The notes below the pieces were generated by a model that was not told the DNA's origin, ran no database searches, and saw only the letters and a list, made by a program, of their open reading frames with translations. The position numbers and the translations under genes were made by a program. Positions 48,469 through 53,074 of a stretch of 59,289 nucleotides of DNA are shown here, piece after piece. The stretch is from Chthoniobacterales bacterium (GTDB lineage Bacteria; Verrucomicrobiota; Verrucomicrobiia; Chthoniobacterales; JACTMZ01), in contig JACSRX010000071.1 in assembly GCA_014879535.1 (NCBI GenBank), forward strand, positions 1-59,289. Direction: 5' to 3'. The stretch's first letter is position 1; every line of letters begins with the position of its first letter.

Positions 48469-48546
48469 GCCGAGCCCAAGTCCACCCATGGACGTTCTGC
48501 AGAAAGTTAGATAGTTCGGATGCAACAGTGTAATTATGTCCCCCAA

Positions 48547-48583
48547 GGTAGGGCGGGATGTCCCCAGCCCGCCGGGAACATTG
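48547..48583 (+). repeat. Dispersed hairpin repeat, type A
   Basis: GGTAGGGCGGGATGTCCCCA then GCCCGCCGGGAACATTG. The stem arms are GGCGGG and CCCGCC, fully paired, with the same loop position as the 28608 copy. Confidence 0.8.
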
Positions 48584-48592
48584 CCTACCCCC

Positions 48593-48664
48593 GGTAGGGC
48601 CCGCTGGCCTCAGCGGGCCTCTGCCTTTCCACCGATCTGGACGGCTGAGCCAGCCGTCCCTACC
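48593..48664. repeat. Composite hairpin repeat, type B, bounded by GGTAGGG...CCCTACC
   Basis: It opens GGTAGGGCCCGCTGGCCTCA, then the GCGGG arm, then a link, then GGACGGCTGAGCCAGCCGTC, and ends CCCTACC. The terminal 7-bp inverted repeats and both internal hairpins are intact. It is the best-preserved copy in the window. Confidence 0.88.
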
Positions 48665-48680
48665 GGTTCATTCCCCAAAA

Positions 48681-48717
48681 GGTAGGGCGCGGCGTTCCCG
48701 ACGCGCCGTGAACCTAT
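48681..48717 (+). repeat. Dispersed hairpin repeat, type A
   Basis: GGTAGGGCGCGGCGTTCCCG then ACGCGCCGTGAACCTAT. The arms GGCGCG and CGCGCC pair fully. Three copies of the family lie in tandem between rnr and the next gene. Confidence 0.8.
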
Positions 48718-48726
48718 CCACCCCTC

Positions 48727-49662
48727 CTACCTGCGCCCCGGAAACGTCAGTTCCGCAATCCCGCTTTTGTCGAGATCGCCCAGACCTTCGGAGACCATCC
48801 GGTCATATTGCGCCTTGGTCGCCGCCGCGAGGGGAAGGTCGAGGCCCTGTTCCCGGGCCAGTGACAAGGCAATCCCGCTGTCCTTCGCCGCATGGGCGGC
48901 GGAGAAAAAGCAGGCATGGTCCCGCTTCACCATGTCCTCCCCGTCCGTGGCGAGCACACGCGAGTTGGCGCCGGTCTGCGAGAACACCTCCATCACCATC
49001 TCCAGGTCCAACCCGAGCGCGGAGGCCAACCCCAGCCCCTCGGCGAGTCCGGCCGTGTTGATGTTCATCACCATGTTGACGAGCGCCTTCAAGGCGGCGG
49101 CCTGTCCTGCCGGACCGATGTAGCGCAGCAATTTCCCCTCATCCGACAACGGCGCCAAGATGTCCCGCACCCGCTCGAACACCTCCCGGCGTCCACCGAT
49201 CATGAGATACAGCGTCCCCTGCAACGCCTGCGGGATACTCGATGCCATGCAAGCCTCCAGCGAATACGCGCCGACGCGTCCGCAGCGGGCCTCGATTTCC
49301 CGGTGAACGGACGGCGAAACTGTGGCGCAATTGATGAAAACCTTCCCCGCCGCTCCAGCCAACAGGGAATCCCCATCCTCCGCAAACACCGCAAGCTGGG
49401 CCGCATCATCGGTCACCACGGTAAAAATCACATCTGCAGACGCGGACACCTCCGCCAAAGTTTCCGGCGCCGCGCACCCGATCTCCGCCGCCAGCGCCTC
49501 AGCCCCGGCCCGATGGACATCAAAGACCGCCGCAATCCGGAATCCCTGCGCATGCAGCCGCCGCACCATGTTCGCCCCCATCCGCCCCACCCCGACAAAG
49601 GCAATGGACAGCTTCTCGGGCAACGGAGGAACCGGATCGGAAGAATGGGACGTCGGCATCAT
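48727..49662 (-). CDS. NAD(P)-dependent 3-hydroxyisobutyrate-dehydrogenase-family oxidoreductase
   Basis: The 311-residue protein has the NAD-binding AFVGVGRMGANMVRRLHAQG, the substrate motif INCATVSPSVHREIEARCGR, and the catalytic lysine region AAALKALVNMVMNINTAGLA (Lys in the conserved helix). It ends in the family's C-terminal helical domain. It probably reduces or oxidises a beta-hydroxyacid; the exact substrate is not evident. The start is one of two adjacent ATG codons at 49662 or 49659. Confidence 0.85.
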   Translation of the reverse strand: MMPTSHSSDPVPPLPEKLSIAFVGVGRMGANMVRRLHAQGFRIAAVFDVHRAGAEALAAEIGCAAPETLAEVSASADVIFTVVTDDAAQLAVFAEDGDSLLAGAAGKVFINCATVSPSVHREIEARCGRVGAYSLEACMASSIPQALQGTLYLMIGGRREVFERVRDILAPLSDEGKLLRYIGPAGQAAALKALVNMVMNINTAGLAEGLGLASALGLDLEMVMEVFSQTGANSRVLATDGEDMVKRDHACFFSAAHAAKDSGIALSLAREQGLDLPLAAATKAQYDRMVSEGLGDLDKSGIAELTFPGRR

Positions 49663-49729
49663 GCCCGACACCTTACAACGCTGCACCAGCTTTCACTACC
49701 CTATGCACCACGGCCCTATCCCCCGCCCG

Positions 49730-49807
49730 GGTAGGGCCGCACCTCCTTGGATCGCCGGAGTCCCGGCCCATGCGGGACGTAGGCGGCCGGGCCGGCCGGG
49801 AACATTT
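49730..49807. repeat. Hybrid dispersed repeat
   Basis: It starts GGTAGGGCCGC, contains a perfect hairpin GTCCCG...CGGGAC, and ends with the type A tail GGCCGGGAACATTT. It appears to mix type A and type B parts. It lies next to the toxin-antitoxin pair. Confidence 0.55.
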
Positions 49808-49809
49808 CC

Positions 49810-50172
49810 TCAGATCGGCAATACCCGCGCTTTTGTCTTGCCGGGAAGAATCGTGACGATCGCTCCCGCAAGCAACTCCTGCCGAAATTGAGTCAAGGCG
49901 GAGAGCAGAGTAGGACCGAGAACTTCCGGCGCAACATCCTCGACACGCGCCTGAATCACACTTGGTTTATGCGAGGCAGCATTGGCCAAGAGAGCACCGA
50001 AATCGAGATCATGCGTGAAGACGACAAACCCATGCGCCTTGGCATGCTCGAAAATGAGCCTGTCCTCCGCATCAGCCGCCCCGATGGAAAACCAATGAAC
50101 CGCGCTGACGCTATGACGGTTGAGGTAGCCAACCCATTCGGGGGTCAGGCATACGTCAACAAGCAACTTCAT
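49810..50172 (-). CDS. DUF5615 PIN-like toxin
   Basis: The 120-residue protein starts MKLLVDVCLTPEWVGYLNRH, with the first acidic residue of a PIN-like active site, and has VFTHDLDFGALLA with two further Asp. This is the DUF5615 family, thought to be RNases, usually paired with DUF433. Its ATG overlaps the DUF433 stop by 4 bases. The usual Asn/Asp in LVDxNLP is replaced by Cys (VDVCLTP), so its activity may be reduced. Confidence 0.75.
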   Translation of the reverse strand: MKLLVDVCLTPEWVGYLNRHSVSAVHWFSIGAADAEDRLIFEHAKAHGFVVFTHDLDFGALLANAASHKPSVIQARVEDVAPEVLGPTLLSALTQFRQELLAGAIVTILPGKTKARVLPI

Positions 50173-50393
50173 GCCGGCTGCAGATCAGCGTCGAAAGCTT
50201 CCGTGAGCCATGCAGCGTAAGAAAGCGCCGCAGAAATGTCCTCTTTCTCCAAATAGGGATACATTCGGAGAATTTCGGCCTCCGCATGACCCGCCGCAAC
50301 AAGACCCGTGATGGTTCCCACGGTGACACGGAGGCCGCGAATGCAGGGCTTGCCTCCCATGACCAATGGATTTCGGGTGATTCGCGGATGCAT
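50169..50393 (-). CDS. DUF433 antitoxin
   Basis: The 74-residue protein has the DUF433 signature ITRNPLVMGGKPCIRGLRVT followed by a helix-turn-helix-like AEAEILRMYPYLEKEDISAA. DUF433 proteins are antitoxins or DNA-binding regulators for DUF5615 toxins. It precedes the toxin gene and overlaps it, the normal order. The pair lies beside the attC-bounded cassettes but in the opposite direction. Confidence 0.8.
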   Translation of the reverse strand: MHPRITRNPLVMGGKPCIRGLRVTVGTITGLVAAGHAEAEILRMYPYLEKEDISAALSYAAWLTEAFDADLQPA

Positions 50394-50500
50394 GGATGCA
50401 CGTTATACCAGCAGAAATATGGGAGCAAGCGGTTGGGAAGGACCACTCCGTTCTGCCCCTCCCGCGACAGCATTCGACACCCCTCTCACTTCTTCGCCAC

Positions 50501-50532
50501 GGTAGGGCCGTGTGGCCTCACACGGCCGCACC
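50501..50532 (+). repeat. Dispersed hairpin repeat, type B short form
   Basis: GGTAGGGCCGTGTGGCCTCA then CACGGCCGCACC. The arms GGCCGTGTG and CACACGGCC pair around the conserved GCCT core, with different arm bases from the other type B copies. Confidence 0.75.
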
Positions 50533-50725
50533 CTCCCAAAACACTCGACGCACGCAATTCCGCATGGATAAATACCAGCCCGGTGCCATGAACCTCCAGA
50601 AATTCAGCGGCCACCCCATCCTCACACCCCTTCGCCACAGGTGCCGACTCATGGCACATCCTGAAACAAGGTGCTCTTATTGCATTGGACAACTCGTTGT
50701 TCAATTCCAATATTTTATACGGCTG

Positions 50726-50731
50726 TATAAT
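50726..50731 (+). promoter_or_regulatory. TATAAT -10 element upstream of the first cassette gene
   Basis: A consensus TATAAT lies 18 bases before ATG 50749 in a very AT-rich stretch. No good -35 box is seen at 16-18 bases. It could be the promoter that expresses the cassette array. Confidence 0.4.
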
Positions 50732-50735
50732 ATAC

Positions 50736-50742
50736 GTTCGGA
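50736..50742 (+). other. Left boundary of cassette array (attC/attI-like GTTCGGA)
   Basis: ACGTTCGGA lies just before the first cassette gene, as GACGTTCGCT and GACGTTCGCC lie just before the second and third. Only the G-TT core and flank are visible; no matching left half was found upstream. Confidence 0.45.
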
Positions 50743-50748
50743 AAAAAT

Positions 50749-51156
50749 ATGGTCCGATTAGCATACTCGCTGGCTCTCCTCACGCTTCTTTCAGGATGCG
50801 GCCTATTCGAAGTTTATGGGAAGCGTGAGCACGTCGTTGAGCGGTTCAAACTTGTGGACGAGAAGAGCGGGAAACCGATATCAGATGCTGATGTGACAAT
50901 CATGGCCACTCATGGACCACAAATTCTCCCCACAATTAACTTCGGAAGGCCGAGGAATGTTTCCGGAAGAACTGACCATCACGGAGAAGTGTTACTACGA
51001 ATCCCCCAAGGACCTAAGATCGAAAAATTAGCCTACGGCATCAAAGATAACGTTATTGTATTGCATCAATGGGAGATGCACTGGTCAAAGCCATCAGGAG
51101 ATACTACTATCTTGCTTGGCGACGCAGAGTCCACTTGGCAATATAGGAACAAATGA
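50749..51156 (+). CDS. Cassette 1: small lipoprotein
   Basis: The 135-residue protein has a lipoprotein signal (MVRLAYSLALLTLLSGC, Cys17) and a beta-rich body. Its FKLVDEKSGKPISDADVTIM followed by GRTDHHGEVLLRIP resembles carboxypeptidase-regulatory/Ig-like beta modules. It is much more AT-rich than the surrounding genome. Its stop is one base before the R box of an attC-like site (51158), the normal layout of an integron gene cassette. Function unknown. Confidence 0.65.
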   Translation: MVRLAYSLALLTLLSGCGLFEVYGKREHVVERFKLVDEKSGKPISDADVTIMATHGPQILPTINFGRPRNVSGRTDHHGEVLLRIPQGPKIEKLAYGIKDNVIVLHQWEMHWSKPSGDTTILLGDAESTWQYRNK

Positions 51157-51157
51157 A

Positions 51158-51271
51158 TCCGAACAGAGCGATGCACCGAACACCTACCCGCCGTCACGCC
51201 GAGTGCTTGGCGCTTCGCTCCCGGCACTCGTCGCGCCGTCGGTCCGGTGCCGGTGATCGCGGACGTTCGCT
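51158..51271 (+). other. attC-like recombination site 1
   Basis: The left half TCCGAAC-AGA-GCGATGCACC pairs with the right half GGTGATCGC-GGAC-GTTCGCT. CGAAC/GTTCG forms the R box, AGA against GTC the unpaired spacer, and GCGAT(G)CACC/GGTGATCGC the L box with one extrahelical G. A variable inner stem (CGAGTGC...GCACTCG) lies between. These are the defining features of an attC site, folded from one strand. Cleavage would be at G-TT in 51265-51271. Confidence 0.72.
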
Positions 51272-51277
51272 AAAGAT

Positions 51278-52093
51278 ATGACACTCCGAGTCCTCATCGC
51301 GCTTCTGATCATGACGGGCTATGTTTCCGCCAACTGCGGTCAGGCTTTCCATCTGTTGGATACGGAGATTAAAGCACTCGTAGCAAAAGCGTCCGATGGG
51401 GATGCCAATGCCGCGTATCGGATGTGGAATTTCCACTCGATGTCCAGCCAGAATGAACAAGAGGCCGACAAGTGGCTTAGAACGGCCGCACGCTTGGGTC
51501 ATCCCGAGGCTCAACGCTGGCTTGCATATGAGATCAAGGATTGCGACAAGCCACCTGGAACTTTTGGCAAGACACCAAGAGCAGCGGTAGAATCACTTTT
51601 GCGGTCTGCTTCCCGAACAAGTGGAACAGCTGCGGACGATCTTGGAGAAGCATACAGGGATGGCTACCTCAAGCCACGCGACCGCCTTGCGAAAGCAAGA
51701 CAAGCGTTTTTCCTCGCCGCCGAGCACCACAATGCCAGTTCATGGGAAAGCCTTGCTGAGATGCTTTTCAACGGAGAGGGCGGCTCCGCTGATCCGCTAC
51801 AAGCATACTACTTCATCGTTTTATCCACTCAATGTGTTCACCCAGACTCGATCACCGGAAAAGAACTGTGGGAACTAAGAATGAGAATTGAGAAGAAACT
51901 GAATATTGAGCAGATGGCAGCCGTCTGGGACAAGGCGGATGCTTATCTCAAAATCGAGCGCAAATATGACGCAGGCCGTATATACCCACCAGCATTGTTG
52001 GGAACTGGCATCCCAAAAAAAGAATGGGAAAAGCGATTGAAGGAGACTGACAAGAAAGAATCAGCGCATCGGCGCTCTCTGCAAACACAATAA
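51278..52093 (+). CDS. Cassette 2: secreted Sel1-like repeat protein
   Basis: The 271-residue protein has a signal peptide (LRVLIALLIMTGYVSANC). Sel1-like/TPR repeats follow, for example GDANAAYRMWNFHSMSSQNE, KWLRTAARLGHPEAQRWLAY and SSWESLAEMLFNGEGGSADP. Such repeats bind other proteins. It begins 6 bases after attC-like site 1 and its TAA abuts attC-like site 2. No obvious promoter of its own is present. Function unknown. Confidence 0.7.
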   Translation: MTLRVLIALLIMTGYVSANCGQAFHLLDTEIKALVAKASDGDANAAYRMWNFHSMSSQNEQEADKWLRTAARLGHPEAQRWLAYEIKDCDKPPGTFGKTPRAAVESLLRSASRTSGTAADDLGEAYRDGYLKPRDRLAKARQAFFLAAEHHNASSWESLAEMLFNGEGGSADPLQAYYFIVLSTQCVHPDSITGKELWELRMRIEKKLNIEQMAAVWDKADAYLKIERKYDAGRIYPPALLGTGIPKKEWEKRLKETDKKESAHRRSLQTQ

Positions 52094-52219
52094 AGCGAAC
52101 AGACCGATGGACCAAATCACCATCCCTTCGGGACTTCTGGCGTGCTTCCTGCTGATTCCGCTTCGCGGGCAGGAAGCACGTCAGAAGCAAGTGGTGATTG
52201 GTCATCGGGGACGTTCGCC
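52094..52219 (+). other. attC-like recombination site 2
   Basis: The left half AGCGAAC-AGA-CCGATGGACC pairs with the right half GGTCATCGG-GGAC-GTTCGCC. The R boxes GCGAAC/GTTCGC are perfect, the three-base spacer is mismatched, and the L box CGATG(G)ACC/GGTCATCG has one extrahelical G at the same place as in site 1. A long inner stem (GTGCTTCCTGC...GCAGGAAGCAC) is unlike site 1's inner stem, as expected for attC variable structures. Confidence 0.78.
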
Positions 52220-52225
52220 AAAAAG

Positions 52226-52777
52226 ATGAAAGCCGTCCTCATTGCAGCATTCTTGGCCTCGCCGGTCGTCGCTCAACAGTTTGGCGATGACAACCAGAGT
52301 GGAGACTGGCTTCCACTACCGGACGGTTATGTATGGCCAGTCCCTCTGAAGGACGCTCCAGATTTTGAGCCCACCACAAAGGCGTTCAAGGAACTTCCGA
52401 AGGAATTGAGGAAGGGGATCGAAGAGTATTGGCCAGATGATGCACTGCCTGATTCGGTTGAGCTTTTCGAGTGTGACTTGAACGGTGACGGCAAGAATGA
52501 GGTCTTCTTTGCAATTCGCGCTTATAGCGGCACCGGCGGCACATTCTATGAGATATTGACACCCGAAGGCGCATCCTATCGTGGCGTGGGCGGAATCCAA
52601 GGATGGGGATTCCTCTTCCACAAGCGAAAGAACGATTGGTATCAGATCGAGGGCATGAGCCGAGGCGGAGGTGGCAATTACACGCGCTATCTTCTCGCTT
52701 TCGACGGTAAGGAGTATCAGACCGTGAGGAACGAGGGACATGACTTCAACCGAGGCGAGGTCGAGATCAGAAAATGA
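52226..52777 (+). CDS. Cassette 3: secreted hypothetical protein
   Basis: The 183-residue protein has a signal peptide (MKAVLIAAFLASPVVAQQ) and a soluble body with FECDLNGDGKNEVFFAIRAY, a calcium-binding FG-GAP-like element. It ends with an aromatic-rich region (WYQIEGMSRGGGGNYTRYLL). It starts 6 bases after attC-like site 2 and ends one base before the R box of a truncated third site. Function unknown; similar small secreted proteins are common in cassette arrays. Confidence 0.65.
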   Translation: MKAVLIAAFLASPVVAQQFGDDNQSGDWLPLPDGYVWPVPLKDAPDFEPTTKAFKELPKELRKGIEEYWPDDALPDSVELFECDLNGDGKNEVFFAIRAYSGTGGTFYEILTPEGASYRGVGGIQGWGFLFHKRKNDWYQIEGMSRGGGGNYTRYLLAFDGKEYQTVRNEGHDFNRGEVEIRK

Positions 52778-52778
52778 A

Positions 52779-52832
52779 GGCGAACCAGGCAGTGGACTCA
52801 ACGACTACCCGCCGTCACCGACAGGCAACATA
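52779..52832 (+). other. Truncated attC-like site 3 (left half only)
   Basis: GGCGAAC is followed by CAG, GCAGTGGACT and GACTACCCGCCGTCACC, resembling the left half of site 1 (ACCTACCCGCCGTCAC is shared with small changes). No GTTCGCC right half follows; the next gene starts at 52833. The site seems to have lost its right half. Confidence 0.55.
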
Positions 52833-53069
52833 ATGATCACGGTGCGAACATTCAGCGACTCAGTTGAAGCTGGACTGGCCAAGTCCGTTCTCGACTCAGC
52901 TGGGATTGCATCATTCCTTCACGGTGAAAACACCTTTCAAACCGATGCCGGGATAGATCTCGTGCTGCAATTGCAAGTCCCCGAAGATCAAGCGGCGGAA
53001 GCGTTGCTTCTCCTAAACAGAGGCAACCCAAAAGGCGGGAGTGGTGGCATCGGCCACGCCAAAAGCTAA
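52833..53069 (+). CDS. Cassette 4: DUF2007-type small protein
   Basis: The 78-residue protein begins MITVRTFSDSVEAGLAKSVL, then DSAGIASFLHGENTFQ and DLVLQLQVPEDQAAEALLLL. This is the layout of DUF2007 (putative signal-transducing protein), which usually reads VYxAxxxxEAxLxxxLLExxGI. It follows a half-deleted attC site, so cassettes 3 and 4 may now be fused. No attC-like site is seen after its stop before the convergent SDR gene. Confidence 0.7.
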   Translation: MITVRTFSDSVEAGLAKSVLDSAGIASFLHGENTFQTDAGIDLVLQLQVPEDQAAEALLLLNRGNPKGGSGGIGHAKS

Positions 53070-53074
53070 CCCCT

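Follow-up and report, generated by a model that had tools for sequence, protein, structure and literature searches.

Sequence and fold of a GTTCG-core attC site in a probable attI-headed, integrase-free cassette array of a Chthoniobacterales bacterium

Introduction

A strong hairpin a few bases past the stop codon of a short gene can be read in more than one way, and the question is raised acutely by a palindrome at 51158-51271 in a 59,289-nucleotide stretch of DNA from a Chthoniobacterales bacterium (the whole stretch is here termed the window). Its outer boxes recall those of an integron attC site, but its terminal core, GTTCGCT, departs from the GTTRRRY given as the core rule in published descriptions (PMC3053210, PMC8876359, PMC7370490). 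Is the palindrome an attC site, is its core a corrupted one, and could an integrase still act on it? For chromosomal integrons the described features of attC sites include the box order R''-L''-L'-R' and use of the bottom strand as the substrate (PMC2727003).

Anatomy and fold of the site

The palindrome, site 1, reads TCCGAAC-AGA-GCGAT(G)CACC ... GGTGATCGC-GGAC-GTTCGCT and is divided as follows.

51158 to 51271, forward strand: attC site 1
51158 to 51164, forward strand: R'' box, TCCGAAC
51168 to 51177, forward strand: L'' arm, GCGAT(G)CACC
51252 to 51260, forward strand: L' arm, GGTGATCGC
51265 to 51271, forward strand: R' box, GTTCGCT

All nine of the nine L''/L' pairs form, together with one bulge whose extra base is on the L'' side, and the spacers are unequal, AGA (3 nt) on the left versus GGAC (4 nt) on the right. 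The boxes and arms stand as the original prediction gave them, as does the GTTCGCT core, but the right spacer, which it had as GTC, is the four-nucleotide GGAC. The AAC and GTT boxes expected at the two ends are present (CCGAAC ... GTTCGC), and AAC and GTT are invariant across the 31 sites of the alignment considered below. When the geometry AAC-3-5-bulge-4 ... 9-4-GTT was searched for, with all nine arm pairs and the R pairing required, the sole matches in the 59-kb window were 51158-51271 and 52094-52219 (site 2); eight Markov-shuffled windows gave two matches in total. Site 1 folds at -38.2 kcal/mol (z -4.3) as the bottom strand versus -27 (z -0.7) as the top, while site 2 folds strongly on both strands with no bottom-strand bias. 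The inner stems of the two sites do differ, as had been proposed.

An alignment of 31 attC sites, drawn from this genus and from one relative (locus L038), was the basis of a covariance model. When calibrated it scores site 1 at 85.7 bits (E 1.7e-16), a score that is not independent since site 1 is itself a seed; site 2, likewise a seed, scores 65.2 bits, and nothing else in the window is matched. In the alignment 73 cells are changed on both sides versus 25 in shuffles, covariation is present in all nine L pairs, and 88.9% of cells are paired versus 24-38% when the structure is slid. With E allowed up to 0.1, the model yields 27 matches in the genome, spread over about 15 contigs and with the weakest doubtful, and it also recovers arrays adjoining intI in other phyla, none of which was used in its construction. 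Across its matches in the genome and at other loci the same arm architecture recurs behind unrelated genes. One site of this genome, L021:2644-2757, is a lone attC with R' GTTGATA directly beside a gene, and a second site near it was not found. As to the relative in the seed, L038 is a metagenome-assembled (MAG) contig labelled Blastochloris, whose integron attI, attC cores and IntI resemble those of the present genus, whose intI is broken, and whose label is probably wrong.

These properties bear on whether the hairpin is instead a transcription terminator, or another RNA hairpin conserved with the gene upstream, the explanation that the original prediction had named as able to overturn it. 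Its strength and its position just past a stop codon would suit such a role. It has no T tract, however, and was not reported by a terminator scan; an Rfam scan of the window gave no match; the gene upstream has no homologue among 197 genomes sampled from the order, whereas this type of hairpin stands behind unrelated genes; and it is the bottom strand that folds better, not the top strand carried by the mRNA of that gene. A terminator or conserved RNA hairpin is accordingly hardly credible here.

The cassette array and its attI

In the surroundings of site 1 the original prediction had missed an attI at the head of the array, a truncated third attC and the lack of an integrase gene.

48469 to 53074, no strand: variable chromosomal interval holding the array
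50676 to 50738, forward strand: attI-like site, related by homology to the attI next to the intact intI of contig C38; its crossover falls in GTTCGGA (50736-50742)
50737 to 51265, forward strand: cassette A (TTCGGA...G), beginning at the attI crossover; start core GTTCGGA, reverse-complementary to the R'' of the same cassette, TCCGAAC
50749 to 51156, forward strand: open reading frame of cassette A, 135 aa, with weak DUF2606 similarity
51266 to 52213, forward strand: cassette B (TTCGCT...G); GTTCGCT matches R'' AGCGAAC
51278 to 52093, forward strand: open reading frame of cassette B, 271 aa, with a weak Sel1 repeat (Pfam)
52094 to 52219, forward strand: attC site 2, R' GTTCGCC, found by geometry scan, folding and covariance model
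52214 to 52818, forward strand: cassette C, with a truncated attC at its end; GTTCGCC matches R'' GGCGAAC at 52779
52226 to 52777, forward strand: open reading frame of cassette C, 183 aa
52779 to 52818, forward strand: remnant of a third attC that keeps the left half (R''-L'' arm) and lacks the right, with CTACCCGCCGTCAC in common with the left arm of site 1

The three reading frames all start no more than 13 nt from a core, and each ends at an R'' box or only a few bases from one. Integron integrase, IntI, cuts G^TT within R'. Since the start of a cassette and its own R'' are then left from one circular attC, the two are expected to be complementary, and the R'' and R' of one site within an array need not match. 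In the window the expectation holds for all three cassettes (GTTCGGA/TCCGAAC, GTTCGCT/AGCGAAC and GTTCGCC/GGCGAAC), and over five loci for 17 of 18, where 20,000 permutations gave a mean of 1.7 and a maximum of 9. With AAC and GTT ends, paired arms with a bulge, bottom-strand bias and this complementarity, site 1, as read from sequence, fold and cassette structure, is a genuine integron attC site; what had been termed attC-like is thus borne out by geometry, covariance model, arm covariation and cassette boundaries. It would be the attC of cassette A in a short array, in which an attI-like site is followed by three cassettes, A and B each with an intact attC and C with a truncated one, and integrase would act on the folded bottom strand of site 1, cutting between G and TT of GTTCGCT. 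The truncation of the third site, to which the covariance model has no match at 52779-52818, means that the array is at least partly decayed.

The genome (3.17 Mb in 97 contigs, the assemblies compared being drafts) encodes two IntI above the TIGR02249 cut-off, on contigs C38 and C70. Contig C38 carries a complete integron with array cores GTTCGCC, GTTCGGT, GTTCGGT and GTTAGCG. Its IntI (L019:2025-3392) is of 455 aa, about 140 residues of which precede the region matched by the integron integrase model, and this N-terminal extension is largely common to relatives in Verrucomicrobiota and Planctomycetota. In a tree that also included a row for L038, unused because its intI is broken, both IntI group with those of a Chthoniobacter-labelled MAG, another Verrucomicrobia MAG and the sister species (97/96 support), a placement that makes a host in the Verrucomicrobiota the most likely.

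The 63 bp that precede cassette A match the attI of contig C38 (E 2.2e-6) and further copies on C93 (E 9.2e-18) and C83 (E 2.9e-11), all four ending in AATATACGTT; a fifth copy is incomplete, running off the start of contig C5. The C93 copy retains a 55-residue N-terminal remnant of intI, and the contig of the C83 copy ends 173 nt upstream. It is on this homology with the attI of an intact intI, and on a crossover at the start of the first cassette, that the sequence in the window is taken as an attI. Near it, neither intI nor a remnant was found in the roughly 4.7 kb searched upstream (46-51 kb of the window). The locus is therefore not a complete integron, in which intI adjoins attI, the intI genes being on other contigs. 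CALINs are clusters of attC sites lacking an integrase, and with at least two attC sites and no neighbouring intI the locus is one of them.

Insertion of cassettes off-target, at a secondary genomic site merely resembling attI, has been proposed as an origin of CALINs (PMC8618304). For the window it was rejected, and is rated very improbable, on account of the attI homology of the sequence ahead of cassette A: those 63 bp are homologous to attI both at the locus with intact intI and at that with an intI remnant, and the E-values are far lower than chance would give in a genome of 3.2 Mb. The CALIN would rather have arisen by loss, or separation, of intI.

The interval that holds the array is flanked by an RNase R-like gene and one for an epimerase, and in relatives the place is taken by other inserts or by about 96 nt, as in G002, where the flanking genes are only about that far apart. 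That relative lacks the whole 4.6 kb interval, and the search turned up neither a clean empty site at the precise position of the window attI nor an orthologue of the window array to set beside it. Plasmid and phage collections gave no full match, only a 33% partial match to an Opitutaceae plasmid. Beside the array, at 49810-50172 on the reverse strand, is a DUF5615/PIN-like gene, possibly half of a toxin-antitoxin pair.

The GTTCG core as a trait of the lineage

GTTCGCT, GTTCGCC and GTTCGGA are all off the GTTRRRY consensus, and site 1 does not conform to the full GTTRRRY/RYYYAAC, which was treated as a descriptive consensus and not as defining attC. Among model matches at named loci of Verrucomicrobiota, Lentisphaerota and Kiritimatiellota, R' cores are GTTCG in 19 of 36, GTTAG in 6 and GTTGG in 5, versus GTTCG in none of 33 and GTTAG in 27 of 33 in the other phyla sampled. 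The contrast in GTTCG has a Fisher p of 2e-7, or 6e-6 without the seed locus L038, values that are optimistic because matches within one array are not independent. A less model-dependent scan gives the same trend, 7 of 12 versus 3 of 34, the latter figure implying that GTTCG is rare elsewhere rather than strictly absent. An Opitutaceae locus (L099) uses GTTAG and GTTGG, so that GTTCG is typical of some Verrucomicrobiota and not of all.

In arrays adjoining intI, in the genus and at L038, most R' cores are GTTCG or mixed with it, for which reason GTTRRRY is too narrow for this lineage. As far as sequence comparison goes, GTTCG is the commonest core of the genus and not a broken GTTRRRY, and the guess of a lineage-specific core holds, GTTCG being the commonest also in the wider sample of the three phyla. 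No description of GTTCG as a lineage core was found in the literature searched.

Loading in trans

Whether an array so separated from an integrase is still served can be approached through the sister species, which have a second type of attI: six genomes hold 16 copies between them, with one to four in each. Of the 16, three stand next to an intI that shows no damage over the stretch its contig covers, three next to an N-terminal intI fragment and one next to C-terminal fragments; nine are without intI, some of these being decayed or cut short. In the draft assemblies of G003, G006 and G010 no intI was found above E 1e-30. At five integrase-less loci of this type (L024, L214, L215, L217 and L220) homology to the intI-linked attI stops near the same base, at CAACTGCC..., some 70 bp to the left of the crossover, a pattern that would suit an attI able to move as a discrete unit.

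At one sister locus, W, contigs C1 of G003 and C76 of G009 are colinear at 90% over 1958 bp, an alignment that takes in a neighbouring gene, the remnant of an intI truncated at the same point in both, and the attI, and that stops exactly at the attI crossover, at the core GTTCG; the cassettes beyond differ between the two. The colinear breakpoint implies that the intI truncation happened once, and if so the cassettes there changed after the local integrase had been lost. G009 has an intact intI elsewhere in its genome. At locus X, downstream of topA, G006 and G007 share flanks and an integrase-less attI, and the cassette between differs. The difference at X could instead have come about by erosion of an array that was longer in the ancestor; genomes without the attI have unrelated sequence after topA, so there is no clean empty site. 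The two loci with intact intI in G009 and G007, which served as a positive control, agree at 97.7% as far as the core, and beyond it a cassette common to both occurs in different positions. Loci W and X suggest that attI sites with no integrase of their own are loaded in trans, by an enzyme whose gene lies elsewhere, use in trans being well supported for the genus by the sequence comparison at locus W. From them we infer action of IntI on the window locus, whose array is probably still served by an IntI encoded elsewhere in the genome, where two are present.

The array could also be a dead relic, its attC sites true but no longer acted on after loss of the integrase. Both the lack of intI or a remnant in the 4.7 kb upstream and the truncated third attC are in keeping with that, whereas sites 1 and 2 retain perfect geometry and matching R boxes, the genome has two intact-looking IntI, and cassettes have turned over at sister attI loci that lack an integrase. 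A relic is a real possibility, though the less probable course. The sequence evidence together makes it very probable that site 1 is an attC in an attI-headed, integrase-free array, a CALIN by loss or separation of intI that is probably still served in trans.

Relation to known systems and implications

Site 1 is like the attC sites of chromosomal integrons (PMC2727003) in its box order, G^TT/AAC core and extrahelical base on the R''-L'' arm, in unequal spacers that give an unpaired central spacer, in a variable inner stem, and in standing just after a reading frame with a short leader. It is unlike them in that R' GTTCGCT and R'' TCCGAAC break GTTRRRY/RYYYAAC, and in that the extrahelical base in this genus varies among G, C and T (top strand). 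Differences in attC sequence and structure by taxon have been described for a set of 11 taxa, Verrucomicrobiota not among them (PMC8352920); the present sites also differ by taxon, but with a GTTCG-dominated core.

The window array resembles other CALINs in its pair of intact attC sites within 1 kb and in having no intI close by; unlike them, it retains an attI at its head, which allows origin by intI loss to be read directly. A case is already known in which a genome with a complete integron also holds an array that has an attI but no integrase. The present genus differs from it in that integrase-less attI sites recur across the genus, with up to four attI per sister genome, and are at conserved chromosomal loci with cassette turnover. 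On the sequences compared, the chances seem evenly balanced that the genus has a split system, in which one or two integrase genes load several dispersed integrase-less attI sites with GTTCG-type attC cassettes, the window array being one such site.

With the commonest core here off the consensus, searches with strict GTTRRRY could under-detect arrays. The intI truncation shared at locus W places the turnover of cassettes there later than the loss of the integrase and makes action in trans testable, and attI-headed, integrase-free arrays allow the origin of CALINs, and whether these are still active, to be addressed directly.
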